64,000 nt of DNA from an uncultured Paracoccaceae bacterium (GTDB taxonomy: Bacteria; Pseudomonadota; Alphaproteobacteria; Rhodobacterales; Rhodobacteraceae). How positions within the stretch are numbered: position 1 is the first letter of the stretch; every line of letters begins with the position of its first letter. The notes under the pieces are model-generated. The model searched no databases, was not told the origin of the DNA, and was given only the letters and a program-made list of their open reading frames with translations. This document shows positions 49,982 through 64,000 of the stretch, one piece after another. The translations under genes were made by a program, and so were the position numbers. Location of the stretch: NCBI GenBank assembly GCA_947492825.1, contig CANLNT010000001.1:1798001-1862000 (forward strand), given 5' to 3'.

Positions 49982-50272
49982 TCAAGCGAGCACGTAAACA
50001 TCGTACCGACTGAACGCCAAATCCTTAACCTGTTTCAGCGATTGATAGTCAGGATGGTCAAAGACCTTTAGGATGGCTTGGTCATTGGGATATTCAATCA
50101 AAGAGACGTAATGTGGGGGTGCTGAACCGGACAAGCTCTCCGAAACTTCATGTCTGCTAATCAGCTTTGCGCCTGCGGCCTCCATAAGAGGCGTCACGAC
50201 GGACACATATTTTTCAAGCGCATCGCTGCCATCCGCTTTCGTGGACGTCATTGCTAAAACTGTCTTTGTCAT
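49982..50272 (-). CDS. DUF1330 family protein
   Basis: 96 residues from the ATG at 50272 (GAGGAT ribosome site). Ferredoxin-like fold typical of DUF1330: YVSVVTPLMEAAGAKLISRHEV, then HYVSLIEYPNDQAILKVFDHPDYQSL. No known activity. It is monocistronic. Confidence 0.7.
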   Translation of the reverse strand: MTKTVLAMTSTKADGSDALEKYVSVVTPLMEAAGAKLISRHEVSESLSGSAPPHYVSLIEYPNDQAILKVFDHPDYQSLKQVKDLAFSRYDVYVLA

Positions 50273-50378
50273 GTCGGTTATCCTCATCTTGCCTTCATGC
50301 AGACAATCACATTTTCAGCAAACTCATCCATCAAGAAAGCTGGTCGCGAACACTGACAGACGGCCTTTCGTTGGTCGC

Positions 50379-50465
50379 GCAGCATCGGCCAGTTTCGGCT
50401 CTCTCCTGCCATCCGAGGCAGTGCAGCATCCTGTGATACACTGTGTTGGCCAACGTCAGGTCGCC
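50379..50465. repeat. dispersed repeat, copy B1 (degenerate)
   Basis: GCAGCATCGGCC-GTTTCGGCTCTCTCCTGCCAT, then GTGCAGCATCCTGTGATACA parallels 54316-54405 in the same order. The stretch 50273-50544 holds no supported gene. Confidence 0.45.
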
Positions 50466-50544
50466 GTTTTGTGCTGTTCATGACGACGGATCAGTTTATC
50501 CTGACGCATTTGATAAATCACTAGTCTTTTGCGAGGTGTTGAAT

Positions 50545-51390
50545 CTAGAAATTGATTGCTTGTTCGAGGATGCTCTCAGTAGCAGTCAACAACCGTTCTT
50601 TGTAGTCATCTTCAAAATTCAAAGGGATCGGTTTTTCGCCGACAAACATCTGACCGGTTGTTCCAGTTAGCTCCGTCTCCGTAGCGACATAGATACCGCT
50701 TTGGCATTCGATTGCCATGAACATCCGAGCAAATCCAAATATGGTGTTTAAAGGGAAACGCAGACTGCGGAATAGGTCCGATTTGACAGCGCCTGGATGA
50801 AATACATTGACGTCAATGTTGTCTGACGCGAACCGTTCTGCAAGAATTTCGCTCATCACAGTTTTTGCGTGCACGGCCACTGTGGAAGCACTCATTATGC
50901 CGTAGTTCTTCTCCGATTGAATATCTTGGAAATTCAAAATTGGCTTCATTAGCCGGGCTGGTGGTCCGCTGACGTTTACAATTCTACCGTGATTTGCTGC
51001 GGCCAAAGCGGGGCGAAGTTCATTCGAGAGGATAAAGGCGCTCAAGTGACCAATGGCAAAGGTCTTTTCGACACCCTCCGGCGTGAGCAGCCGGTCCGGT
51101 GACATAATCCCCGCAATGTTTGCAAGCACATCTAGTTTCGGGACTTGGGAGACAAATTTTTGGGCGAAGGCGCGCACATCTCTGAGATTGCTAAGATCCA
51201 GACTGATAAATTCTGCATCGCCAGGGCCAAGAGCTATTAACTCCCGCTCAACCCGATTGCCTCGATTTTGGTCTGTGCCGACAACATAGACCATTGCGCC
51301 GATGCGTACCAAAGCCTTGGCTATGGACAGACCGACGCCGGACGTTCCGCCGGTGATTAACGCAGTCTTTTTCGAGTTTTCCCTTTTCAT
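50545..51390 (-). CDS. short-chain dehydrogenase-like protein lacking a clear YxxxK site
   Basis: 281 residues from the ATG at 51390; the frame is open to 51516. The N-terminal cofactor loop TGGTSGVGLSIAKAL and ANIAGIM are normal for an NADP-type SDR of the retinol-dehydrogenase group. Where YxxxK is expected the sequence reads YGIMSASTVAVHAKT, with no obvious Tyr-x-x-x-Lys pair, so the protein may be non-catalytic or use an altered site. It is divergent from a LysR gene with 73 bases between. Confidence 0.8.
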   Translation of the reverse strand: MKRENSKKTALITGGTSGVGLSIAKALVRIGAMVYVVGTDQNRGNRVERELIALGPGDAEFISLDLSNLRDVRAFAQKFVSQVPKLDVLANIAGIMSPDRLLTPEGVEKTFAIGHLSAFILSNELRPALAAANHGRIVNVSGPPARLMKPILNFQDIQSEKNYGIMSASTVAVHAKTVMSEILAERFASDNIDVNVFHPGAVKSDLFRSLRFPLNTIFGFARMFMAIECQSGIYVATETELTGTTGQMFVGEKPIPLNFEDDYKERLLTATESILEQAINF

Positions 51391-51463
51391 GTGGAAGAAA
51401 ATAATAGTGAAAAATTGCACGTCAATCAGTGACTTTTCATGGTTGCTATGCAAAATTGCAGGT

Positions 51464-52357
51464 ATGCAATGGGATGACCTTAGACTTCTGCTTGAGCTCT
51501 CGCGCTCGAATACCATGACCGAGGCCGCGGTGCGTCTTGGTGTTGATCAAACAACCATTTCACGCCGTCTGCGCGGATTGGAAGATGCGACAGGCGTTTT
51601 GTTGGCCACGCGAAATCGAAGCGGGATCGAACTAACAAATGCAGGTCTAAAGGCTGCCCATTCTGCAGAGATTATGGAAACGGTTAGCAACGACCTTGAA
51701 CTGACCCTTGCAGGAACAGATTCTCGTCTAGCAGGTAGGTTAAAAGTTACGACATTGGACTTCGTAACGCATTTTCATCCTGACCTTTTCACAAGCTTTG
51801 CTGCGCACTACCCAAACGTTGACATCGAGGTGGAAACCCACACTGACCTACGCTCACTAGCTCGGAGGGAAGCGGATGTTGCTATCCGTTGGACATCTGA
51901 TCCGGGCGATGGGGTTGTTGCGCAAAAACTTGCACGCGCTGAATTCGCGCTTTATGCGTCCAGAGACTTGGTCAAAATGATTGGTAGGCAGTCAGGTTTG
52001 TCAAATTATCCATGGCTTGCATTCACTGCTGGCAACAAATCAATCTTAGTAGATGATTTCATACGCAAACACGCACCTGATGCCAGGACCCTATGTCGTT
52101 ACGACAATGCGATGTCGATGCATGCAGGCATAAAAGCTGGCAAAGGAATTGGGTTCATGCCGTGTGCCTTTGGCGACCCTGACCCTGAATTAGAACGACT
52201 ACACCCTATCCAACCAAATTTTGGCAATGACATTTGGTGTTTGGCACATGCAGAGCTAATTCGAACAGCACGCGTGCGAACTTTCCTCACGCATGTAAAT
52301 GCATTCTTTGCGGCCCGCGAACAACAGTATGCTGGCAATTGTCCGGACGTTGGTTAA
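51464..52357 (+). CDS. LysR-family transcriptional regulator
   Basis: 297 residues from the ATG at 51464; the longer frame from 51302 overlaps the divergent SDR gene. HTH: LLLELSRSNTMTEAAVRLGVDQTTISRRLRGLE. The effector domain ends near FGNDIWCLAHAEL. Likely regulator of the divergent SDR gene. Confidence 0.9.
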   Translation: MQWDDLRLLLELSRSNTMTEAAVRLGVDQTTISRRLRGLEDATGVLLATRNRSGIELTNAGLKAAHSAEIMETVSNDLELTLAGTDSRLAGRLKVTTLDFVTHFHPDLFTSFAAHYPNVDIEVETHTDLRSLARREADVAIRWTSDPGDGVVAQKLARAEFALYASRDLVKMIGRQSGLSNYPWLAFTAGNKSILVDDFIRKHAPDARTLCRYDNAMSMHAGIKAGKGIGFMPCAFGDPDPELERLHPIQPNFGNDIWCLAHAELIRTARVRTFLTHVNAFFAAREQQYAGNCPDVG

Positions 52358-52424
52358 GGTGCGCTCACTACCGACTTTGGACGCGGTGCGGCATCGGCGC
52401 AATCCGGGGCGATCGACCGAGCAA

Positions 52425-52560
52425 GGACGGCCCTTTGCTGCCATTCATCCACCAATCAAGATGCTGCGGTCGCAGCCCGCTTTGCGGTCATTCGCTGCGA
52501 CCGCAAAATCTCGAAGCTTATGAATGGGAAAGTTGCGGACAATACCGCCGTTCAATGCGC
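52425..52560. repeat. dispersed palindromic repeat, copy A3 (best preserved)
   Basis: The core has perfect 11-bp arms: TGCGGTCGCAG (52465-52475) and CTGCGACCGCA (52495-52505), with a smaller CCGC-TTT-GCGG hairpin in the loop. Flanks (GGACGGCCCTTTGCTGCCATTC before, TTGCGGACAATACCGCCGTT after) also recur in A1. It looks like a non-autonomous intergenic repeat. The region 52358-52818 contains no supported gene. Confidence 0.65.
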
Positions 52561-52818
52561 GTACATGAATGACTGCATAGTGTGGAGCCGGTTGAAGTAA
52601 GACAAAATTAGCCGCGCTCACACGTCGACTTATTTCCTGCCATAGTCCCAACAAGCAACGTAATAGGCCTCGCGACTTTTCAACAGGTTGGGCTAAACCG
52701 ACGGGCATACAAATAATGACGATGCGGCTCGAAGGGCGCAAAAATCTGTGAGGCCGAAAGAAAATAGCTACCCAAACATACACAAGACACCGTACGTTAC
52801 GTAAACCAGAGACACTGT

Positions 52819-54105
52819 GTGATATTTATGAAATTTTTCAGAAATATATTGATATTCTTCGCGCCTTTTGTCGTCGGCCTCGTCGCGGGCGCTTTGGGTC
52901 TCTTGATAGCCGGAAAAGTTGTAGAGGACCCGCTAGCGCTTACTTACATATTGGCTTCACTTGCCGGCGGATTAATGGTCATACTCTTAGTTTGTTGGGC
53001 AGCCTACCGAATTTTCATACGCACGAATTCGGATCGTTATAGAATTTGGGAACAAAGCGAAATCCAAGAATTAATCCGCTCACCCAATCTTGTCTTGGAC
53101 AATCATTATCGCGAACAAAAATTGGTTCCGGTCTTGCGCCGGTTTGGCAGCTTGGTTGGCGCGTGGTTCGGTTTTGCTGCAGCATGCGGCGTCATCACCG
53201 TGTTTTTGACAAACGTTTTGTTGCTCTCGACTCTTGTTGTCCAAATGGCTTCAGTTGAGCGGTTGGATGGGCAAAACTCGCTACTTTACAACCAAAACAA
53301 GCTTGTCAACCTGCAGGCCAGGATAGAAGCGATTTCGAACCTCGACAATATTGAAAGGCGATATTTTGAGATCTTTGGCCACACCTCGTTCATACACTCG
53401 TTTTATTTATCAGGATATGGCGAAATGAGAAATGACGGACGACGTTTGTTCTTGCAAGTTGGACGAATGAGTTTCGATTGTTCCGAGGGCCTAACTAACC
53501 CTTGTGGTTTTGATATAGAGGAAGCTCTCGCCGCGACGCTTCAAGGGGACAAAAATGACGAAAATCTGCCCAACAACTTTTGGAAATTTGTTCATCTTCT
53601 TGGCAAGCAGCACAAAGCGCGCCAGACTGACGTCCGTGAAAATAGTACCATTGCAGACATAGGGGAACAACAGAGCTCGGAGGCCATGGCAGGCCTTTAT
53701 CGACGCGCGGCTACAGAGTGTCTAGCTCCTCATAGCCACGTTACTTCTGTCACCCACCAACTTTATCTGCAGTTGCGACTGGAAGAAGCGGCTGCCGAGT
53801 TAATCGATAGAAGGGTATCGTCGCAGGACGGCGAATACGCTGAAAGCCAAATTGCTGCGGTAAGTGACTTTAGAGACGCCTACATTGCTTTCCGAGACCA
53901 TTGGGCCGAAGCGCGCGGAACTTTATTGAATCGACTGGATTTTCTTGAAAGAAATTTCCAAGAGCCCCTCCGTACTCTACAGCAACAAATTGAAATCACA
54001 CGGAAGTTTTGTAGCGATAAGTCTGAAGAGCGTAACCGGCAAATCCAGGAGCTACATGACTTTTTGAACGGAGCAGATTTACTCATGCCTGCTTTCTTAC
54101 CATAA
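52819..54105 (+). CDS. membrane protein of unknown function beside the defence operon
   Basis: About 428 residues; GTG at 52819 or ATG at 52828. Not recognised. Three hydrophobic segments: about 8-32, 40-65 and 110-140. A long soluble, helical C-terminal region follows, with a Cys pair (FDCSEGLTNPCGF) in its middle. The gene is AT-rich like the TIR genes and converges on the minus-strand operon (ends 54105 versus 54586). It could be a membrane-disrupting effector or an unrelated envelope protein; nothing in the sequence decides. Confidence 0.7.
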   Translation: MIFMKFFRNILIFFAPFVVGLVAGALGLLIAGKVVEDPLALTYILASLAGGLMVILLVCWAAYRIFIRTNSDRYRIWEQSEIQELIRSPNLVLDNHYREQKLVPVLRRFGSLVGAWFGFAAACGVITVFLTNVLLLSTLVVQMASVERLDGQNSLLYNQNKLVNLQARIEAISNLDNIERRYFEIFGHTSFIHSFYLSGYGEMRNDGRRLFLQVGRMSFDCSEGLTNPCGFDIEEALAATLQGDKNDENLPNNFWKFVHLLGKQHKARQTDVRENSTIADIGEQQSSEAMAGLYRRAATECLAPHSHVTSVTHQLYLQLRLEEAAAELIDRRVSSQDGEYAESQIAAVSDFRDAYIAFRDHWAEARGTLLNRLDFLERNFQEPLRTLQQQIEITRKFCSDKSEERNRQIQELHDFLNGADLLMPAFLP

Positions 54106-54585
54106 GAATTTGTGTTGGTTGCTGTTCGGCTCCGTCAAAGCGCTTGTCGTTGCGTGCTCATCCCAAGACGCACAATCTTGTTGGGAAGCAAATCAAACGT
54201 CATTTTCGGGCAGACCCTTCGCTTCGGTCAAGAAGAGTGCAGCTGTGCTTCGAATGCTAACCACCTGCACAGGCTGTTTGTGCTGTGTTTTCTAAAAAGC
54301 ATACCTTTGAACAGATCGCAGCATCGGTCGCTCTTGGGCTCACTACCGCCATTAGAGCACATGCAGCATACCGTGTACCAGCCGTTGCGCAACCTTCGTA
54401 GGCGGCCCGAAGCTGACGTTGGGTTTAGCCCGAATATTCTGCCGAAGCAGCCATTCGCTGCATCTGCAAATCCTAGAGAACTAGTTAGGTAGGCAGCCTG
54501 AGCGAAATCTGTCAGTCCCCTAGGACTAACTTCTTTTCATGGATCACATCTGAATTACTACAAATTGGAGTTATGGTTTTAACCT
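54106..54585. other. convergent intergenic region with repeat copy B2
   Basis: 480 bases between the membrane protein gene and the last TIR gene. It contains repeat copy B2 (54316-54405) and no supported gene. No clear T-run terminator is visible for either transcript. Confidence 0.45.
54316..54405. repeat. dispersed repeat, copy B2 (degenerate)
   Basis: CGCAGCATCGGTCGCTCTTGGGCTCACTACCGCCAT, then ATGCAGCATACCGTGTACCAG matches copy B1 at 50379 in order and spacing, with many substitutions. Confidence 0.45.
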
Positions 54586-55506
54586 TCACTCCTCGGTAGT
54601 TTCAGATGAAATTCCTACATACGGGCGGTCTCTAACATAGGGCTCAGATATCCGTAACGCTTTGATCCTGCGACCCGGGGTCAAGATAAACCGGGCAGGA
54701 ACTTCATTTTGAATTTCTGAAATGGCGAGAACTTGATTTGTGACTACATCCTTCAACAACCAATCAAGTAAATATGTGTAGGGCTCCACTTCAGCGTAGA
54801 GAAACCCCCACATCGTGTCCAAAAATTCGCCAAAGGTCGTTTCATATTCAACAAAAAACTCCAGAGCGTCATCTGAGATTCTATTTTCAATCTCTATCAA
54901 GTATCCCGAATATGCCGATGGGCTGTCTCTAACAGCTGCTTCAATCGACATGAATTTCTTTTCAAAGTAGTCCCGATCTAAATCTCTTTCTTTATGATAG
55001 ATCGTTTCGGTGGTTTTTACCTTTGCCTGGTCTAGAAGGGAGCGGAACTCTTCAAAACATGCCTTGGCTATCAGTTCCTCAAAGTGGACATTAAACAGTG
55101 GAAGTAACTTTCTTAAGAATTCGAGACATCTCTGCTCCGTATCAATCCTATACATCTGCCATTGTGAGAAAGGTGCAGGTACTTTCGCAATATCTTCAAT
55201 CCCGATAAGCAGCGGAATTATCTCAAGTTCGCTAGACGCCGCCCCAAAACCTGCTTCGAACTTTACCCAATCTGATTCAATACCTGCCTCGGTACATAGC
55301 ACGACTACAGCTTGAGACTTCCGAAGCCTCTCCGAAAGCGCAGGGAACCATCGATCACTCGGATGCATGCCGGACTCGGCCCGACCGTCACTAGAGTGCC
55401 AAATTCTTATTTGCCTAAGAGAACACTTCTCAATTAATTCTCCGAGTCCGTTGCAAATGACTTGATCAAGAGATGAATGACTTATGAAGACTTGTTTTTC
55501 AGGCAA
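54586..55506 (-). CDS. TIR-domain protein
   Basis: 306 residues from a TTG at 55506, preferred because GAGGA lies seven bases upstream and the TIR domain begins at once (PEKQVFISHSSLDQ). A TTG at 55566 would add 20 residues without a good ribosome site. TIR domain about 1-140, with the catalytic-type Glu in WVKFEAGFGAA. The C-terminal 160 residues are unrecognised, acidic and helical. TIR domains in bacteria usually cleave NAD+ or make cyclic ADP-ribose signals. It is the last gene of the minus-strand run, 78 bases after the protease gene with this start. Confidence 0.82.
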   Translation of the reverse strand: MPEKQVFISHSSLDQVICNGLGELIEKCSLRQIRIWHSSDGRAESGMHPSDRWFPALSERLRKSQAVVVLCTEAGIESDWVKFEAGFGAASSELEIIPLLIGIEDIAKVPAPFSQWQMYRIDTEQRCLEFLRKLLPLFNVHFEELIAKACFEEFRSLLDQAKVKTTETIYHKERDLDRDYFEKKFMSIEAAVRDSPSAYSGYLIEIENRISDDALEFFVEYETTFGEFLDTMWGFLYAEVEPYTYLLDWLLKDVVTNQVLAISEIQNEVPARFILTPGRRIKALRISEPYVRDRPYVGISSETTEE

Positions 55507-55584
55507 TCTAGTTTCCTCGAAGTAGGTGTTCAGTGCGACTAAAGCTACAGAAACCCTTTTCCGCAAGCACTACAGGACGTGGCT

Positions 55585-57276
55585 TTAATTCACTTTCCAT
55601 CGGGTAACACCAGCTGCAAGATCTCTTTTGATTGCGTTTATTATTGGCTGCATCCAAATGGCTTCGTTCACAGCATAACTGCCAGGTTGTCCATTTAATC
55701 TGTTGATTTCTGTGCCTCCTGCATGATGGAGGCCAATCATTTCAAGACTGGCGTTTAGCGCTATTCCGCCAGAGCTTCCGGGTATGGATGGAGTGGTATA
55801 GTGGATCAAGCCAGGTATGAGGCCGTCTTTTCCCGTGGAAATCGCATCATGATCAATCAGGTCTGTATTCTGGAACGAATAGGATACGCCATCCCTCTCG
55901 GGGTGGCTGATCAAGAAAACTTCGGCTGGCTTCTCAGCGTCGACTTTTGGAACATAAGAGACTAGCGGAATATTTGACTCTTCTATAGGTGGCTTTCCCT
56001 CGATTTCGAATAAACAAGCATCGTGGGCCCCATACGGCGACGACCAGATTACTCTTCGGATCGTGAACTTTTCATCGGGACGCTGTGAGCCGGTAAACCT
56101 CACAGCGGCTTCTTCCGGTCTTAATGGCCTGCGCTGAGCGGAGTACTCATCTGGATATTCGCTTACTACGTGGTCGTTGGTAAGTAACACGAGTTGTCCA
56201 GCCAGTTCTTCCGAGAACCATTCCCCACCCAATACCGAGCATGTACCCAGTGGTTCATCCGTGCTAATATCAACCACGGACGCAACACAACTACCACGAG
56301 CAATGTATTTCCTCATCCAGCCATCAGATCTCATTCTATGGTGACTATGGAGTGCCTGAAGTTGCTCTTCCGTCACAGATCTTTGTCTGTGGATATCTTC
56401 AGAGTCGAGTGTGATCTCTCCGTTGGGCTGGCCTAACATGTTGCGCTCGAGCCACGTGACCATTACGGCCGCATCTTCGCCTCTGTCTTGCAGGAACCAA
56501 ACTTCCTTGAACTGACGAAGTGTTCCGTTCAGCATGAAAGGCTGTGCCTTTCCCGTTTCTAACGCACTTACTATTGCGAGGGTTGCTTCCTGCCAGTTTT
56601 CTTTCCAAACTTGCGCTTCGGCCAAGCTGGCCCAATCCCAATAGGACCTATTCGGCTCTTCGATGCGACCGATTGATTCAATTACGGAGTCCGCTACGTC
56701 GTCTGGAGAAAGCATATTCGGCACGCTGTAGTCGTTCGCCGAAGCACTAGAAGCAAGAGCAAGCAGATTTACTCCGTGCCAAACTCGCACTTCTGGTGCT
56801 CGATGCCACGGCTCCCAATATGCACGAAATGCTCTTTCTAAGTGCCGAGATGCTTCGCTTGAGTCTTTTGGAAGTTGTGCGAGGTATAAGTCTTTGTGGA
56901 CTCGGCCGATCAATCCACTTGCCTCAGAAAAATCTTCAGGATCGTTCCTCGCATCGCTGTCTCGCAACATCAAAGTTAGGATTGGTAGCGCCGATTGAGC
57001 GTGCCCCGTATCTATTTGCGCTTGAGCATAGTGCTTGTCAGTATCGAACGTATTGCGGCCTTCGGAGCTCAGCATTTCACCATATGCGATCATATAGTCA
57101 TGTTGTTGATGGTCTCTCAGCAGTTGATTTACTGTTTGGACGTCTTGAAGACCAAAGGTGTTATCGCCCTCAGCTACGCAGCGCAAAATTCTTGAGACGG
57201 CTTCGTCGGTTCTCCTTTCGTCACCATCTTGAAGCGCGCTGTTCAAGTCCTCTGTCAACGAATGGAGCTCGGTCAT
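55585..57276 (-). CDS. TPR-containing trypsin-like serine protease
   Basis: 563 residues. Residues about 1-315 are helical repeats (TPR-like, similar in character to the TRAF-binding MAP3K region), including YAQAQIDTGHAQSALPIL and ASLAEAQVWKENWQEATLAI. Residues about 325-555 are a trypsin-like domain with His369 (TNDHVV), Asp419 (AHDACLFEI) and Ser502 in GSSGG, so the triad looks intact. No signal peptide, so it acts in the cytosol. Such TPR-protease proteins occur in bacterial conflict systems. Its ATG overlaps the hydrolase stop by 4 bases. Confidence 0.85.
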   Translation of the reverse strand: MTELHSLTEDLNSALQDGDERRTDEAVSRILRCVAEGDNTFGLQDVQTVNQLLRDHQQHDYMIAYGEMLSSEGRNTFDTDKHYAQAQIDTGHAQSALPILTLMLRDSDARNDPEDFSEASGLIGRVHKDLYLAQLPKDSSEASRHLERAFRAYWEPWHRAPEVRVWHGVNLLALASSASANDYSVPNMLSPDDVADSVIESIGRIEEPNRSYWDWASLAEAQVWKENWQEATLAIVSALETGKAQPFMLNGTLRQFKEVWFLQDRGEDAAVMVTWLERNMLGQPNGEITLDSEDIHRQRSVTEEQLQALHSHHRMRSDGWMRKYIARGSCVASVVDISTDEPLGTCSVLGGEWFSEELAGQLVLLTNDHVVSEYPDEYSAQRRPLRPEEAAVRFTGSQRPDEKFTIRRVIWSSPYGAHDACLFEIEGKPPIEESNIPLVSYVPKVDAEKPAEVFLISHPERDGVSYSFQNTDLIDHDAISTGKDGLIPGLIHYTTPSIPGSSGGIALNASLEMIGLHHAGGTEINRLNGQPGSYAVNEAIWMQPIINAIKRDLAAGVTRWKVN

Positions 57277-58226
57277 AACCTCTTCAACTCCGAACGTATG
57301 ACCTCTCTCAAACCAGCTTGCTTTGCATATTTAAGCATTCCATGGGTCCAAACCCCGCCGTTGCTTTGACGAATATCAACGATGCGTTTGGTGCCATGCT
57401 CAAGGAAATCGTTGCTCAGTTTTGGATCCGCTCGGCTCACCACGTCCACCGGATCGTAGACATTGTGCCAAGATGAAACGACTTTTTCGTGTGTGTAGCC
57501 ATCAAACTGTGAATATCCCGGATCCAATTTGTCCTGCATCTCGGACATTCCCAGAGGGCTACCCACAGTTATCAAGCTTTCAATACTTGGACACTCAGGG
57601 ACATTCTTCAAACAATCGTATGCTATGACTGTTCCGAGGCTATGAGCGACAACAATGATAGGGCCGCCTTCCCTCGCGGCTTTGAGTGTTTCTATGAAAC
57701 GTTTCCGTATTTCATCTCGAACTCGATACTCGAATCCTTCGCGCGGTGAATGCGTGATATTGAATAGATAGTGGTGCGCATCTCGAACAAATGCTTTCAT
57801 CAAGGGCCTTTTGAGAAACCAAGGAAGAGGGATTGCCTCAGCGGCAGCAGCAGCCATTGTTTCGCTGTCTCCACCATTTTCTTCCACCATGGATGAAGAC
57901 CTTAGATCATTCGAATTTATATCTAGATTCTGAGACAAACGCTCTATCCAGTCATCAGAAACATGATCAAGTGATGGAGTGTCGCCAGTCATTGCGTTGG
58001 ATATCTCTATTGAAATGCTCGAACTTTCTGCACCTGAGCGCGACTTTGCATAGTCAGGATAAAGCACATCTGACCAGTACACTAATTTAGTAGAAGCACC
58101 GTAGGTGCCAACTTCGACCCCATCGCTTTCAGCAGTGTCCGTCGCTAACGAATTTTCCCAAAGCGAAAGCAAAGTAGAAGGTTTCGGCATGTTTGAAATG
58201 CCGTGAATAAATATGACCGTTGCCAA
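57273..58226 (-). CDS. alpha/beta hydrolase (lipase/PGAP1-like)
   Basis: 317 residues from a TTG at 58226 with GGAG six bases upstream. Oxyanion region VIFIHGI at the start, nucleophile Ser196 in VAHSLGT, acid Asp in NVYDPVDVV (258 or 261), and His295 in WTHGMLKY. A long insertion (about 60-185) separates the first strand from the nucleophile. No signal peptide. PGAP1-like hydrolases are known effectors in conflict systems, so a lipid or ester target is plausible. It sits 29 bases after the glycine-led TIR gene. Confidence 0.82.
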   Translation of the reverse strand: MATVIFIHGISNMPKPSTLLSLWENSLATDTAESDGVEVGTYGASTKLVYWSDVLYPDYAKSRSGAESSSISIEISNAMTGDTPSLDHVSDDWIERLSQNLDINSNDLRSSSMVEENGGDSETMAAAAAEAIPLPWFLKRPLMKAFVRDAHHYLFNITHSPREGFEYRVRDEIRKRFIETLKAAREGGPIIVVAHSLGTVIAYDCLKNVPECPSIESLITVGSPLGMSEMQDKLDPGYSQFDGYTHEKVVSSWHNVYDPVDVVSRADPKLSNDFLEHGTKRIVDIRQSNGGVWTHGMLKYAKQAGLREVIRSELKRL

Positions 58227-58255
58227 TTCGACTCCAATTCAATGATGTAGATTAA

Positions 58256-58726
58256 CTAAATAATATTCTTGAGATTACTCCAGCGCTCAACGGGAATTTG
58301 GGGATTGTTTCTGACAGCATCGGGCAGGCTATTGGGAGCTGTGTCACCCTTGTGGACTGCTATGACTCGCTTGCCAAGCTCTAGTGACTTCTGAACTTCC
58401 CAATTCACCCAACGGCTGTTTTGTGTCTGATCCGACACATAAACTACGGTTGTTGAAGACTGTCTTATACGTTCAGTAATTTGGCGCTTGATGTAGTCGG
58501 CGTTCTTGCTGTCAAAAGCATCTTTCACAGACCAGTCGTTAAACTCGATATCCGATCTTTCGCTTTTTGCCTGTCCTCTAAGAAGATTGACTTCATTGGC
58601 GTCTTCGTAGGCAAAGCTAATAAACAGGTTCTTTCTTCCTTCATTGTTCAAGCGATCTTTGGCCTCTTGAAGCAACTTATCGACGTCGCCTATGTTTCGA
58701 TAGCCGCCAGTTCCACCACCACCCAT
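58256..58726 (-). CDS. ThsB-like TIR protein with Gly4 N-terminus
   Basis: 156 residues from the ATG at 58726, which follows the QueC-like stop by one base. The last QueC-like codons (GGGGGTGAG) serve as its ribosome site. The longer frame to 58840 is rejected. It starts MGGGGTGGYR, so Met removal would expose Gly. Residues about 33-130 are a TIR-like domain of the Thoeris ThsB/DUF1863 type (NLFISFAYED, then SSTTVVYVSDQTQNSRWVNWEVQKSLELGKRVIAVHKGD split over two strands), with Glu110 in the usual catalytic place. No ThsA partner is encoded nearby. The N-terminus is a candidate target for the QueC-like enzyme. Confidence 0.85.
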   Translation of the reverse strand: MGGGGTGGYRNIGDVDKLLQEAKDRLNNEGRKNLFISFAYEDANEVNLLRGQAKSERSDIEFNDWSVKDAFDSKNADYIKRQITERIRQSSTTVVYVSDQTQNSRWVNWEVQKSLELGKRVIAVHKGDTAPNSLPDAVRNNPQIPVERWSNLKNII

Positions 58727-58727
58727 A

Positions 58728-59318
58728 TCACTCACCCCCAATTTCAAATTCTTTGCAAGCAATACATTCCCCGCATGGTATTGCGGAACCAACATGGCAG
58801 GAATAGGTCTGCCCAATGCCCTTTGCTTCAGACATGGCAATAACTTGCTGCTTTGAGAATGCCATCAAAGGCGCTTTGATTGAGACTGTCTGCCCCACAG
58901 CTGAGCACAAAAAGCTCTCGGCTCTCTCAAGATAATCCGTCGTTTGATCCGAAAACAGATGGTATTTCTCGTCTAAGAGGCCGATCATTATAGTATGCGC
59001 GCCAATAGTTGCCGCATAAGAGGCCGCGCTGAGTAAGAAGAGGCTATTTCTTCCGGGAGTGAAAGCTTCATCCACAACATGCAGATCGGCGTTCGTCAAA
59101 CCTGAGGGAATGAGCTGCCCGAAGCCTTTCAAATCCGCGACGATGGGGCTGCGAATTTTGTTTTTGGCCATTGCTTTAGTGCAATGACTGAGTTCTATTT
59201 TTGCGGCTAATTGGCCATAGTCGACGAACAACGGAAATACATCATACCCTTCTTCTGATGCTAAGAGTGCAAGCAGTGTGGAATCTAACCCACCTGACGC
59301 TAGAACTACTGCCCGCAT
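58728..59318 (-). CDS. QueC-like 7-deazaguanine enzyme (Cap9-like)
   Basis: 196 residues, shorter than housekeeping QueC (about 220-235). N-type PP-loop SGGLDST (8-14), then VDYGQ, PGRN (88-91) and the four-Cys zinc site Cys174, 182, 185, 188 (YSC, PCGEC, IAC). So ATP-dependent activation of 7-carboxy-7-deazaguanine should be possible. Ribosome site AGGAGGG nine bases upstream; start overlaps the glycosylase stop by 13 bases. Its neighbours (Ogg-like, TGT-like, TIR) point to a defence role, as for Cap9 of type IV CBASS, rather than queuosine synthesis. Confidence 0.9.
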   Translation of the reverse strand: MRAVVLASGGLDSTLLALLASEEGYDVFPLFVDYGQLAAKIELSHCTKAMAKNKIRSPIVADLKGFGQLIPSGLTNADLHVVDEAFTPGRNSLFLLSAASYAATIGAHTIMIGLLDEKYHLFSDQTTDYLERAESFLCSAVGQTVSIKAPLMAFSKQQVIAMSEAKGIGQTYSCHVGSAIPCGECIACKEFEIGGE

Positions 59319-59941
59319 TCAGCCACCCTCCTACCAGCTGCCCTCATAGTTATCCAAATTGCGACGTCTAGTGCATCAGCACGAATATTTCTCTCCGAAG
59401 AATAGGACAAAAACGTCGTTTCCAAGCGTTCGTATTTTTTCCAAGTAGCTGGCATGTTGGCCCCCTCTGTAAGTCCCACCAACTGGAGGTACTTTAGGAT
59501 GTGGCGATCCAAAACTGCGATCTCTTGACCATACCCGCTACAGCTAAACAGAAAACTGGCCTGTTTAGGGCCAAGTCCTGGCACTAATTCTGCCATCATT
59601 TTCCTGTTTCTAAACACACACTTCGGCTTGTCCAGCCAAACGACAGTTGCGTCCAGAACTGAAGCGTGATTGGCAAAGATTGCGCTCAGTCGCTTCTTGG
59701 TTTGGTTTGGAAACCTATGACGCGATGAAACAAGTTCAATCTGACGAGTAGTGGGGTTCTCAACAAGAGTCTTTGCCATCGAAGATGCAAGTTCATAACG
59801 AACACCACTGCCAATCACGGCAGCAACAACCATTTCGCGCAGACGATAAGGGCACTCGACGGGGGGATTGGGAACCTCACTAGAAAACCGCCGACCAAAA
59901 TCTAAGGCTATTTCCTCAATCTGAGTTGCTAGTCCCATCAT
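59306..59941 (-). CDS. HhH-GPD DNA glycosylase-like protein (Ogg-like, Cap11-like)
   Basis: 211 residues from the ATG at 59941 (GAGGAG ribosome site; ATGA overlap with the upstream gene). Helix-hairpin-helix with GLGPKQAS (122-129), where Lys126 matches the Schiff-base Lys of archaeal-type Ogg, and VLDRHILKYL with Asp145 as the catalytic Asp. It would excise a base, or read a modified base. Ogg-like proteins are a recurring partner of QueC-like and TGT-like proteins in type IV CBASS. Confidence 0.85.
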   Translation of the reverse strand: MMGLATQIEEIALDFGRRFSSEVPNPPVECPYRLREMVVAAVIGSGVRYELASSMAKTLVENPTTRQIELVSSRHRFPNQTKKRLSAIFANHASVLDATVVWLDKPKCVFRNRKMMAELVPGLGPKQASFLFSCSGYGQEIAVLDRHILKYLQLVGLTEGANMPATWKKYERLETTFLSYSSERNIRADALDVAIWITMRAAGRRVAECGQ

Positions 59942-61398
59942 TGGCACTCCTCGATCAATTTATTAGCTATCTGATACTCGTTCCCCAGCTCTTTGTAAGT
60001 AAAAAGCTGTTCATATTCATCATCGCGGTCATGAGTTCGTATAGTCTCACTTGCCTGCATGAAAAATGCCATATTATGTAGCGTAGCCTTTGTAATCCAA
60101 GGAACTGCTCCGCTTTGGTCCTTAACCAGTTGCGCTAGCTCTGGCCTTTCAATGAGACCATGTTGTGACGCAAAGATATCCCATTGTTGGAAATGATAAA
60201 GCCGCCAACGCTGACCATCGATAGCCGTTCGGCACCATTCTAGACCGTCGAAAAAATCCGCTCCGGCCATCGATAGAAACGCCATAGTAATAGGGTTTCC
60301 AGTTCCCAGAACATGTAAGAATGTTGTCGAGCCTTGGTCAGTGAGCGCTTTTCGTATCTTTGCGATGGTTCGAACCCGTTCCATCAGACCGTCGCCAAGC
60401 TCGCGTTCTGCTACGGCAATCATTGGCGGGTCTACGGCTCGGACAACTCCACAACAGATAGCTGGCAACAGGTCGTATCGATATCGCATGCCCGAAAGTC
60501 GTGGGGCGTGAATGATAGGTGCAACAGCACAACTAACCAAAGAGTGGTCCCTTTGATATTCGCTCGCAATCACATCAATCCGAGATTGTGCGTTGGCTTT
60601 TTCGAATGTCGTTTCTTTCGGGAAGCTATCGTGCGTGAACGCAAGATCGACCTCAATGCGCTCCTGAGCTTCTTGCAGACGCCGATTACTACGCTTCCAG
60701 TCCGGGTCCTTATATCTCATTGCCTCGTAGTTACCGGAATCCAAGAAGACTACAGAGCCTGAATCACGCAAGCTCTTGATCGAAGAGACACTACTGATCT
60801 TCGGCTTTGTCCGTGACGCTTTCGTCTTTCCCTTTGGTCTTAACAGGTCGTATGCGGACACTAGGACCGCAGTCGGGTTGACCTTGCTGAGTAAGTCCAA
60901 GGTAGCCTCAGGTTCGATCTGTGTTTCAAATGAGGACACTGATAAGACCATACTCGGAGCAAGCAGTTTCTTGTTGTTGAGAGTGAGCGCACGTTCGTGA
61001 CTTCCAGCAGCACCAAAAACAGTCCTAATCTTTTCAGTCAATTGCTCGTCCAAACCTCCACCTGCTCCAATTACAAGCTGATGCCTCGGACCATCGCGCA
61101 GCCCAAAAGGTGCCTCGTTTACATCACCCAGAAACAAGCCGAGAAGAGGTTTTGAACCTTTGACAATTTCACGTGCTTCATCTCTAACAACAGAGTTCTT
61201 GTTGGCGGCATTGGACCATACAACAACCGCGCCGACACACTCTTGTGAAGCAACCAGTTCCTCAACTTCGGAGTGCCAATCAGTTCGACTGTCATCGTCG
61301 GCGAGCCAAGACAAAAAACCGGTTGCGTTGATCGTTTGGGCCACCTTTCGCGCTATGGCGATATCAGACAAATCGTAGAAAACTATAATTTTTTTCAT
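59938..61398 (-). CDS. TIR domain fused to tRNA-guanine-transglycosylase-like domain (Cap10-like)
   Basis: 486 residues from the ATG at 61398; a TTG one codon upstream is possible. Residues 1-130 are a TIR-type domain (IIVFYDLSDIAIARKVAQTI, AVVVWSNAANKNSVVRDEA). Residues about 145-470 are TGT-like: FLDSGNYEAMRY with Asp220 in the base-recognition place, HVLGTGNP (362-369), and FDGLEWCR with Asp384 where TGT has its nucleophile. The bacterial TGT zinc Cys cluster is not evident, as in other defence TGT homologues. It is the first gene of the run, so the promoter should lie in 61399-61520. Confidence 0.85.
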   Translation of the reverse strand: MKKIIVFYDLSDIAIARKVAQTINATGFLSWLADDDSRTDWHSEVEELVASQECVGAVVVWSNAANKNSVVRDEAREIVKGSKPLLGLFLGDVNEAPFGLRDGPRHQLVIGAGGGLDEQLTEKIRTVFGAAGSHERALTLNNKKLLAPSMVLSVSSFETQIEPEATLDLLSKVNPTAVLVSAYDLLRPKGKTKASRTKPKISSVSSIKSLRDSGSVVFLDSGNYEAMRYKDPDWKRSNRRLQEAQERIEVDLAFTHDSFPKETTFEKANAQSRIDVIASEYQRDHSLVSCAVAPIIHAPRLSGMRYRYDLLPAICCGVVRAVDPPMIAVAERELGDGLMERVRTIAKIRKALTDQGSTTFLHVLGTGNPITMAFLSMAGADFFDGLEWCRTAIDGQRWRLYHFQQWDIFASQHGLIERPELAQLVKDQSGAVPWITKATLHNMAFFMQASETIRTHDRDDEYEQLFTYKELGNEYQIANKLIEECQ

Positions 61399-61745
61399 CA
61401 ATTGCTCAACTGAGGAAGCTCACGATACGCTTAAATGCACGACACAGTTGTAGTGGTAATGTACGCTCTCAGTCTTGTCTATACGCTGGCTTAGAGGCAG
61501 GTTCTGGCATTCGTTGCTTGAGCAATACTTCGAAATACCGTTCAAATTGCGCGTCGGGGAGCTTATTGCTCGGTTGTCAAAATCATTCCGTATAACCAAG
61601 TAAATCTTGAACTACCGGTATCATTGGATGTGGGGGTCTGCTTTGACAGCCGAGCCAATCCGATGCTGCGGTGCAGCGAAAGTCAGCTTTCCGCCCAATG
61701 CTGTTGAAGAACTCTGTGTTGCAGTGCGGCAAAGGATTGGAATGA
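61399..61745. other. upstream region of the defence operon
   Basis: About 350 bases with no supported gene. It is AT-rich near 61390 and should contain the operon promoter, but no convincing -35/-10 was picked. Near 61655-61705 GATGCTGCGGTGCAGC...CAGCTTTCCGCC resembles the dispersed repeat core. Confidence 0.4.
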
Positions 61746-62560
61746 AGACGAGCTCGGGCAGCAGGAAACCGCGCGGCCAGGGAATATCTCGAAACGCTGG
61801 ATGATGCGGCCTTCGGCGCTGCCTCTCCTGACCAGCCCAAGTTTGTCGCCAAGTGTGATCCAGCCGCCCAATGGACGCGCACCGAGGTGAGCAGACCATA
61901 CTTCGCCTACGCCACCAACTATCTGATCGACACCAAGAGCTCAGTCATCATGGATGTTGAAGCAACGCGGGCGATCCGTCAGGCCGAAGTAGGTGCTTCG
62001 CAAACAATGCTGGATCGCACCGAAAGCCGCTTCGGTATAAGGCCGGATTGGCTGGCCGCAGACACAGCATATGGCTCCAGCGATAACTGAGGATGGTCGG
62101 TCAAGAAGCGCGGGATCATCCCATTCAGTCCTGTAATTGGTCACGCGATCCGCAAAGACGGGGCATGGACGCGGTTTGAGTTTGAATAGGATGAAGACAA
62201 CGATCAATACATTTGTCCAGAAGGCTTCGTGCTCAAGCAGTTCCGACGAAACTACTCCGATCCCAATCGCGGCTAGAACATCCTTGGCACACGAAAGTAT
62301 CGAGCCTTAAAGTCCGACTGCCAAGGGTTTCCCTCCAAAGAAAAGTGCTGTCCCAACGCAATCTGCCGATCAATCAGCCGGGAAGAGCATGAAGACGCAC
62401 GAGACTTTGCGCGATCCTGTCGGAAGACGAAAGCGTGCAAAGTCAGCCGCGACAAACGCAAGAAGGTCGAGATGCTCTTTGCACATCAAAAGCGCCTCCT
62501 CAATCTGACCAGGTTGCGATGACGCGGCCCAAACGGGGCCAAGGGCGCGCGCTACCCTGA
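61746..62560 (+). pseudogene. IS1182-family transposase remnant with four in-frame stops
   Basis: One reading frame from about 61746 to 62560 reads as an IS1182-type transposase: LDDAAFGAASPDQPKFV, YFAYATNYLIDT, IMDVEATRAIRQAEVGA, then RCC-like CCPNAICRSISREEHEDARD and KKVEMLFAHQKRLLNL. In-frame stops lie at 62088-62090 (TGA), 62187-62189 (TAG), 62274-62276 (TAG) and 62520-62522 (TGA). The N-terminal DNA-binding part is missing. The element is dead. Confidence 0.85.
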
Positions 62561-62639
62561 AGTGCGACTCCTATTCGAAAACAATGAGTTACCTGATGGG
62601 AGCATTATCGTATGCTCGACCTCAAAAACCGAAACCTCA

Positions 62640-62794
62640 CCAAAATCTGCAATGAACGCAACAGTCCCGTGGCAGACGCGAAGAGAAGCGGAGTTGGCCA
62701 TCCTCCAGTACATCAACGGCTTTGCAATCCGCGACGGCGGCACTCAGCATTGGGCTGGAAAAGCCCTGTCGCTTTCGAGAGAAAAGTTGCCTAA
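62640..62794 (+). pseudogene. IS3-family transposase C-terminal remnant with a frameshift
   Basis: TVPWQTRREAELAILQYING (one frame) continues as NPRRRHSALGWKSPVAFERK in the next frame and ends at a TAA at 62792-62794. Together they match the OrfB tail of IS3-type elements, with the shift near 62720. The sequence CACTAATACGGGACAGGTCC (62814-62833) may be the element's right end. Confidence 0.75.
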
Positions 62795-62860
62795 ACGAGG
62801 GCATGGGTCGACACTAATACGGGACAGGTCCAGATCACTTCAGAGGGAAAGGCTATCTGC

Positions 62861-63880
62861 TTGGATGTCGATTCGAAAAAACCCGTCACGCTAAAAGATG
62901 TGTCCAAGGCTGCTGGCCTGTCGCTGATTACAGTTTCGCGGGCGCTGCGGCAGCCAGAAACTGTCCATGCCGAAACCCGAAAACGCATTCAAGAAACGAT
63001 CGCTGAGCTTGGATACGTTCCCAATCTCGCAGCACGGTCATTGACGTCGAAAAGGTCAGACATGATCGGCGTGGTTGTGCCAATTCTGGCCAGTTCGCTG
63101 TTTTCCGATTTCGTTCAGGGCGTAACAGAGACGCTCGACAGGCATGGAATTCGCGTATTGCTCTCTGTCAGCAACTGGTCGCAGGACGCCGAAGAAGCTG
63201 CTGTCAAAACATTCATTGCGCGTCAGGCTGACGCGATCATATTGACTGGGTTTTCCCACACGGATGCGACCCGAAAATTGTTGGAAAGGTTTCGCGGGCC
63301 GGTCGTGGAATCCTGGAACATTTCGGACAGTGTGATTGATAGCGCGGTTGGGTTTGACAACTACGCGGCTGCAGCGGATATGACCCGATTTCTGATTGAA
63401 AAGGGGTACGAAAATATCGTGGTCGCGGGTGGCTCTTCCGCGAACAACGACCAGGCTGCCGATCGAACACGCGGCTTTGTCGACACGATCCGGGCGTCGG
63501 GGCGGGCCCTGCCACCTGACACGGTCGTTGGTTTCGAACACCCCGCAACCATCGAGAGTGGGGGCGTGCTCATCCGTCAGTTGCTGGAAAGAGAAAACCC
63601 GCCCGATGCGGTTTTCTTTCTCGCCGAGTTGCCTGCACAAGGCGCAATGCTTTGGTGTCTGTCGAATGGTGTCAAGGTGCCCGAAGATGTGGCGATCGCC
63701 GGTTTCGGCGATCTTAGTCACTCGGCGCTCCTGCCAGTTCCAATGACAACAGTGCAGATCAGGGGGCGGGCAATTGGTGAGCGTGCAGCCGAGATTGTCT
63801 TTCGACGCCTTCAAGACAGCCAGACCAACATCGTAACCGATGACATCGGCTACAGTCTGAAAATCAGGGAAAGCACATGA
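62861..63880 (+). CDS. LacI-family transcriptional regulator
   Basis: 339 residues from a TTG at 62861; GAGGGAAAGG lies upstream and no in-frame ATG gives a complete HTH. The HTH is complete (TLKDVSKAAGLSLITVSRALRQ), followed by the hinge NLAARSLTSKRSDMIGVVVP and a periplasmic-binding-type sensor (GluconateR-like in style: AGFGDLSHSALLPVPMTTVQ). The target sugar is unknown, as the regulated genes lie beyond the window. The IS3 remnant ends about 30 bases upstream. Confidence 0.9.
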   Translation: MDVDSKKPVTLKDVSKAAGLSLITVSRALRQPETVHAETRKRIQETIAELGYVPNLAARSLTSKRSDMIGVVVPILASSLFSDFVQGVTETLDRHGIRVLLSVSNWSQDAEEAAVKTFIARQADAIILTGFSHTDATRKLLERFRGPVVESWNISDSVIDSAVGFDNYAAAADMTRFLIEKGYENIVVAGGSSANNDQAADRTRGFVDTIRASGRALPPDTVVGFEHPATIESGGVLIRQLLERENPPDAVFFLAELPAQGAMLWCLSNGVKVPEDVAIAGFGDLSHSALLPVPMTTVQIRGRAIGERAAEIVFRRLQDSQTNIVTDDIGYSLKIREST

Positions 63881-63981
63881 TTGGGTTGCCTGAAGCAACC
63901 CGGCCTCTTTTGAGCGCTTCGATCATTGGCGCCGGGCATCTTGCCTATCGGATGCATATTCCAAAAACCGATGAGTCTTAA
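63877..63981 (+). CDS. short possible ORF overlapping the LacI-type gene stop
   Basis: ATG at 63877 overlaps the regulator stop (ATGA) and gives 34 residues (LLSASIIGAGHLAYRMHIPK) before TAA at 63979. The overlap suggests coupling, but no family is recognised. It could be a truncated gene start. Confidence 0.25.
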   Translation: MIGLPEATRPLLSASIIGAGHLAYRMHIPKTDES

Positions 63982-64000
63982 GCCGAACGCGGCGCGGCGT

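Follow-up and report, generated by a model that had tools for sequence, protein, structure and literature searches.

What does a gene cassette do when it carries the accessory genes of type IV CBASS (cyclic oligonucleotide-based anti-phage signaling system) but has a TIR protein where that system has its CD-NTase (cGAS/DncV-like nucleotidyltransferase)? Four minus-strand genes raise this question. They lie at positions 58256-61398 of a 64,000-nucleotide stretch of DNA, here called the window, from an uncultured Paracoccaceae bacterium (GenBank assembly GCA_947492825.1, contig CANLNT010000001.1, positions 1,798,001 to 1,862,000). We consider it likely, although well short of certain, that these genes form an anti-phage system with the design of type IV CBASS, but with a TIR enzyme replacing the CD-NTase. 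As a TIR-based system the cassette is most likely a sibling of both type IV CBASS and the Qat system, and its function is probably anti-viral. Our analysis establishes the gene order, the finding of no CD-NTase, an MGG motif at the start of the TIR protein and the conservation of active sites. QueC-driven modification of a protein N-terminus is already known from type IV CBASS; what appears to be new here is a QueC-type gene set beside a TIR protein that starts with MGG.

The first gene of the cassette (59938..61398, minus strand) encodes a fusion of TIR and TGT (tRNA-guanine transglycosylase), a Cap10-like domain with an N-terminal TIR domain, identified by Pfam, PADLOC and a profile comparison with Cap10. 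We place its start at the ATG at 61398, with an alternative TTG one codon earlier. On the same strand follow an HhH-GPD protein of the Ogg type in the place of CBASS Cap11 (59306..59941; Pfam Ogg-HhH 1.1e-14), a Cap9-like QueC protein of 196 amino acids (58728..59318; Pfam QueC 1.1e-36) and, where type IV CBASS has its CD-NTase, a ThsB-like TIR protein (58256..58726; Pfam ThsB_TIR, PF08937, 2e-25). The TIR-TGT and HhH genes overlap by 4 bases (ATGA), HhH and QueC overlap by 13 bases, and a 1-base gap separates the TGA of QueC from the TIR gene. Coordinates and Pfam and PADLOC matches thus agree with the initial annotation, which was made from the sequence alone and had described these four genes, their junctions and their families, including the ThsB-like nature of the TIR. 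That Cap11 is Ogg-like is taken from the same source, and the match of the module HhH to Ogg-HhH is one at the level of the family.

If these genes work together they should be kept together. Using the TGT alignment as query, we carried out a pattern-based scan of a collection of 84,980 species and analyzed the best 80 of 88 relatives with our own profiles of TGT, HhH, QueC and TIR. TGT, QueC and TIR stand in the same order in 77 of the 80 genome loci, a count that includes L050 and L096, both with a broken TIR. HhH is present as well in 75 and is missing from L117 and L120. The remaining three loci, which we kept in the denominator, are cut by a contig end (L063) or broken or truncated (L078 and L104). 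Because the query was the TGT alone, QueC and TIR were not selected for. The cassette is widespread, across many phyla: record titles place the loci in alpha-, beta- and gammaproteobacteria, Nitrospira, Clostridiales, Desulfuromonadales, Acidobacteria, Planctomycetota, Gemmatimonadetes, Bacteroidia, Chlorobiaceae and others, many of them metagenome-assembled genomes. The four-gene order lacking a CD-NTase, which the initial annotation had described from the window, is therefore held together in distant bacteria. The pairwise identities of the four proteins co-vary (Spearman 0.51-0.69, 0/500 permutations, 64 non-redundant members), as is expected if the genes travel together.

The cassette also occurs on plasmids. 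Relatives of the TIR-TGT protein lie on 13 rhizobial plasmids (30-34% identity), and the four of these that we inspected carry the same four genes in the same order and no annotated CD-NTase. A fourteenth match, in Pseudanabaena, is arranged as in type IV CBASS, with QueC, TGT and a cyclase annotated as CBASS, and has no HhH match. A scan of viral contigs for the TGT returned a single locus, L037, with a layout nearly as in L065. Among 385 genomes of the class, a module-type TGT was found in four (the window genome, G000, along with G162, G033 and G119) and a type IV CBASS TGT in one (G123), other matches being to the TIR part only.

The initial annotation had reported no CD-NTase near the cassette and pointed to homologous loci as the place where one might appear. 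There is no Pfam match to a CD-NTase among the ten window proteins scanned, nor a match to SMODS (PF18144) in the window genome. Our CD-NTase profile, built from two type IV sequences and so of limited reach, matched none of the 88 module loci, around which the available sequence varies (median 19.8 kb, 10 of 88 under 10 kb), and matched only its two source type IV CBASS loci. At the level of whole genomes we examined 50 hosts, namely G000 and the hosts of 49 of the 80 loci, chosen in favor of named isolates. SMODS matches are present in 11 of them (10 above cut-off), and the other 39, including G000, have none. Two matches of doubtful place share no sampled 40-mer with the module loci, and the remaining ones are placed away from the module by contig position only. 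A type IV CBASS CD-NTase query matched one plasmid, no viral contig and, in a search without a positive control, 0 of 398 genomes of the phylum.

How, then, could the accessory genes act on a TIR protein? The TIR of the window begins with the glycine tail MGGGGTGG (58703..58726, minus strand). When the start is set at the ATG nearest the QueC stop, whatever follows it, 81 of 85 QueC-adjacent TIRs (from 77 genome loci and 8 others, near-duplicates included) begin with MGG. Of the exceptions, L060 and L077 have MGG when TTG and GTG count as start codons, L050 is frameshifted with MGG kept in its first fragment, and L087 reads MAG. In the set below 85% identity, which omits L050 and admits TTG and GTG as starts, MGG is found in 54 of 55. 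As a control we took the 39 other TIR-profile open reading frames (ORFs) nearby and set aside three fragments of module TIRs (two from L050, one from L096): 0 of 36 have an upstream start giving MGG, two of them having no start codon. Among 1179 other predicted ORFs, the first ATG is followed by GG in 10. What sets module TIRs apart from the controls is the second glycine, since several control TIRs begin with MGL. The codons for Gly2 and Gly3 include all four glycine codons (82 loci), which indicates that the protein rather than the DNA is kept. Residues 1-10 of the tail are predicted to be disordered (mean predicted local distance difference test score, pLDDT, 47).

A similar N-terminus is found in the systems that the cassette resembles. 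The two type IV CBASS CD-NTases that we examined begin with MGGSGGG; the available part of PMC13279940 describes an MGGS motif in the type IV CBASS CD-NTase, whose Gly2 carries the modification, and an MGTS motif at the same N-terminal place in QatB that is required for defense. By analogy, we propose that the MGG of the TIR is an acceptor motif like that of the type IV CBASS CD-NTase, to which Cap9 attaches 7-deazaguanine, and the cassette appears to tag the TIR N-terminus with a modified guanine. The suggestion of the initial annotation that 7-deazaguanine chemistry could license a TIR signaling enzyme gains support from these data, the strongest evidence being the N-terminal MGG, which it had not mentioned. 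We also considered a docking helix shared by TIR and CD-NTase N-termini beyond the glycine tail and rejected it (mean z 0.71 and 0.16 against shuffles).

The TIR protein itself resembles ThsB. Its nearest match by predicted fold is 8FZ9, a TIR from B. cereus, followed by ThsB entries, and by sequence the solved matches are likewise 8FZ9 and ThsB. In the alignments used for residue conservation (86-89 members), E110 of the TIR is present in 85 of 86, the exception being the truncated L096, and E75 of the TIR domain fused to TGT in 50 of 51; we take both to occupy the position of the NADase glutamate. Membership of the ThsB_TIR family, a conserved glutamate and effector genes that differ among loci would all suit a variant of Thoeris. 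In it, nearby effectors would respond to a cyclic ADP-ribose signal from the TIR, while QueC, TGT and HhH, carried along as a nucleobase or DNA-repair set, would leave the TIR unmodified. We regard such a variant as unlikely. It leaves unexplained both the near-constant MGG of QueC-adjacent TIRs, set against its absence from the other TIRs, and a gene order kept over many phyla. Furthermore, no ThsA match was obtained among the ten Pfam-scanned or eight PADLOC-scanned window proteins and, unlike its Thoeris counterpart, the module TIR carries a glycine tail and is encoded after TGT, HhH and QueC.

The TGT-like protein speaks to the same issue. As a single protein, the TIR-TGT fusion matches Pfam below cut-off (TIR_2 8.6e-6, TGT 0.001) and the PADLOC TGT model at 3.5e-22. 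A TGT profile built from six relatives has Cap10 (9NTN, 5.3e-15) as its top solved match, in line with its initial annotation as a Cap10 homologue. Residues D221 and D385 of the TGT are present in 89 of 89 members, and K128 and D147 of HhH, presumably the catalytic pair of OGG enzymes, in 85 and 84 of 87, the rest being gaps. These conserved residues, together with a QueC no less similar to canonical QueC than to Cap9, are what would be expected of a nucleic-acid modification or repair pathway in which a free 7-deazaguanine base from QueC would be placed in RNA or DNA by TGT and taken out again by HhH, with the TIR as an alarm. However, according to PMC11996544 Cap10 reads a protein N-terminus that carries a modification, the ten window proteins scanned include no match to QueD or QueE, and the MGG tail would have no explanation. 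This pathway thus strikes us as improbable. The cassette does share with queuosine biosynthesis a QueC fold with most of the catalytic motifs as well as the TGT aspartates, but its QueC scores 117.2 bits against NCBIfam TIGR00364, under the equivalog cut-off of 150.3, and the module is also present in genomes with no detected QueD or QueE.

Is the QueC-like protein equipped for the role of Cap9? SGGxDS, Q36, E42, R90 N91, D124, K156 and C174/C182/C185/C188 are present in 86 of 86 members, and the spacing YxQ(x)5E, RN and C(x)7CxxCxxC is that of the Cap9 pattern listed in the portion of PMC13329287 available to us. At the level of sequence, its solved matches are canonical QueC and Cap9. This conservation bears on another reading, in which TIR assembly uses the glycine tail simply as a flexible arm, while QueC serves as a scaffold that binds ATP and has a different substrate or none at all. 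The predicted disorder of the tail would fit such an arm, as would hosts, the window genome among them, with no known source of 7-carboxy-7-deazaguanine (CDG). Nevertheless, invariant SGGxDS, RN, D124, K156 and four cysteines are not accounted for by a scaffold, and what hardly varies is the starting MGG and not a general richness in glycine; we hold this reading to be very improbable.

Several observations weigh against a cassette built like type IV CBASS, and they concern QueC and its substrate. The substrate motif of the module QueC reads FPDQ rather than YPDC or the YxDC of Cap9 (F122 in 85 of 86, Q125 in 86 of 86), and this QueC departs from the Cap9 listing of PMC13329287 in the residues that follow its first and last zinc cysteines. 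In the same paper the Y131F variant of E. coli QueC is reported to retain only partial activity. Module QueCs are 0.27 identical to two Cap9s and 0.28-0.29 identical to two canonical QueCs. The predicted fold of the QueC-like protein gives template modeling (TM) scores of 0.77/0.83 to Cap9-CdnD (9NTO) and 0.79/0.78 to canonical QueC (3BL5). Being equally near canonical QueC in identity and predicted fold, the protein lends no support to descent from Cap9. In a QueC tree the module forms one clade (support 0.681); the tree holds only two Cap9s and two canonical QueCs, and we therefore draw no ancestry from it.

The supply of CDG raises a second difficulty. The window genome is 100% complete by tool estimate, and in it we found no canonical QueC, QueD or QueE (two queries for QueE), and hence no known source of CDG there. 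It does carry a TGT and a transporter of the Vut_1 family, which we take to be the family of YhhQ, and probably salvages queuosine precursors. Of the 50 hosts, 42 have a QueD-family match and 39 a QueE match, and 8 lack both, four of these being metagenome-assembled genomes or bins by title. A query with a Rhodobacteraceae QueE likewise gave no match in the hosts of L042, L043 and L044; this narrow query recovered the three records meant as positive controls and none of the other 14. CDG as the donor fits most module hosts but not the window genome, for which an imported precursor, a precursor made by a phage, a different donor or an idle module are possible. It is a long shot, but in hosts with no CDG synthesis the TIR might receive its tag only once a phage that makes 7-deazaguanine bases for its DNA has carried the precursor into the cell. 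If so, the cassette would respond specifically to phages that escape restriction through their modified DNA. Separately, Mesorhizobium sediminum, whose module TIR is frameshifted (L050:12634-13162), has a genome in which neither QueD nor QueE was found.

Despite these difficulties we favor a cassette built like type IV CBASS, and we infer modification of the TIR, NADase activity and an anti-phage effect. In the scheme that we propose, the initiator methionine of the TIR would be removed, exposing Gly2. The QueC-like enzyme, by analogy with Cap9, would activate CDG with ATP and join it to the amine of Gly2. The Cap10-like domain of TIR-TGT could then bind the tagged N-terminus, while its own TIR domain would pair two TIRs. 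Infection would release or complete assembly of the TIR, and, judging from the conserved glutamate, NAD would be consumed or an ADP-ribose signal made. Finally, varying effectors, such as two-transmembrane SLATT proteins, lipase- or patatin-like hydrolases and TPR-S-protease proteins, could damage the cell.

The type IV CBASS CD-NTase was reported in 2025 to undergo deazaguanylation (PMC11996544), and the same protein modification has been proposed for QatB (PMC13279940). Like the module, type IV CBASS sets QueC-like and TGT-like genes beside a signaling enzyme with an MGG N-terminus. In contrast to it, the module has no CD-NTase match, its MGG protein is a ThsB-like TIR, its TGT often has a TIR domain of its own, its QueC has FPDQ instead of YxDC, and it has an HhH gene, for which our profile gave no match in the two type IV CBASS loci examined. 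In one type IV CBASS locus, L008, the gene after the CD-NTase encodes a protein with a weak resemblance to SLATT_4 (under cut-off). In Qat, too, a QueC-family protein stands beside a partner that needs its N-terminal glycine motif (PMC13279940, in part), whereas no QatA ATPase or TatD-family QatD was found among the scanned window proteins and the partner in the module is a TIR. QatB has no Pfam model, and the module QueC is short with a Cap9-like active site, unlike the remodeled one of QatC, as far as the available part of PMC13329287 describes them. A word search for TIR gave no occurrence in the main text of either PMC13279940 or PMC13329287. No TIR-QueC module is named among the titles and abstract openings listed; the Science 2025 deazaguanylation paper or the CBASS classification paper may mention one. 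If our model is correct, the TIR would be a third immune enzyme, unrelated to the others, that has an acceptor motif of the same kind and is served by the same writer and reader genes, so that one tagging toolkit may arm unrelated immune enzymes. Nucleobase tagging would then be an interchangeable arming chassis for immune signaling, and a class of TIR proteins would gain a testable chemical switch at one residue.

The module occurs in two layouts. In 50 of the 88 loci the TGT carries a TIR domain, and in 40 of these a PfkB-like kinase lies directly upstream (for example L004:7756-8937, L006:7747-8898 and L037:6728-7927). In the other 38 no TIR domain is visible on the TGT, with the proviso that fusion cannot be judged in L090 and L104, which begin at a contig edge, or in the split L078; kinase matches number 0 of 38. 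This second layout suggests that the TIR-TGT fusion is not essential everywhere. The kinase, which has no upstream counterpart in the window or in its nearest relatives L042, L043 and L044, may have as its substrate a nucleoside or sugar connected with the pathway. In L082, L085, L088 and L096, whose TGT has no TIR domain, a separate TIR gene or fragment lies directly before the TGT (ThsB_TIR 3.2e-19 in L085), as if the fusion were split.

The neighboring effector genes vary between loci. By rough counts, with each neighbor profile built from a few members, a SLATT protein is nearby in 32 of the 38 loci with no fused TIR and in 25 of the 50 with one, and a TPR-S protein in 3 of 38 and 41 of 50. 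In the window the operon continues past the TIR gene on the minus strand. An alpha/beta hydrolase gene (57273..58226; uncertain TTG start), a likely effector with weak LCAT, PGAP1 and Abhydrolase_6 matches all below cut-off, lies 29 bases downstream, and the gene for a TPR-S protein with a trypsin-like protease (55585..57276; Pfam TPR-S 3.1e-11, Trypsin_2 3.2e-10) overlaps it by 4 bases. A second TIR gene (54586..55566, minus strand; Pfam TIR_2 8.2e-9; start codon uncertain) perhaps belongs to the operon too; the listed ORF does not start with MGG. Hydrolase-type and TPR-S-type genes also follow the module in L042 and L043: weak hydrolase matches lie downstream of it in L042, L043 and L071, and the same three loci have relatives of the TPR-S-trypsin protein, with TPR-S below cut-off in L071. 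In Pseudomonas loci, a convergent set of SLATT, TIR and TPR-S genes lies just past the module (L065:13212-15866 and L066:13324-16022), and L072, L076 and L086 have the same set by layout.

The module looks acquired, given its lower G+C content (0.48, compared with 0.576 in window bases 1-50000) and the finding that its four genes have no match in any of 40 relatives of the window genome. In the same 40 relatives the protease gene has a 39-base match in one class member, and the flanks of the module match short repeated stretches. An Rfam scan of window positions 50000-64000 and a tRNA scan gave no matches. Upstream of the module, at window positions 61769-62840, lie stretches that recur at several places in related genomes, like remnants of mobile elements.

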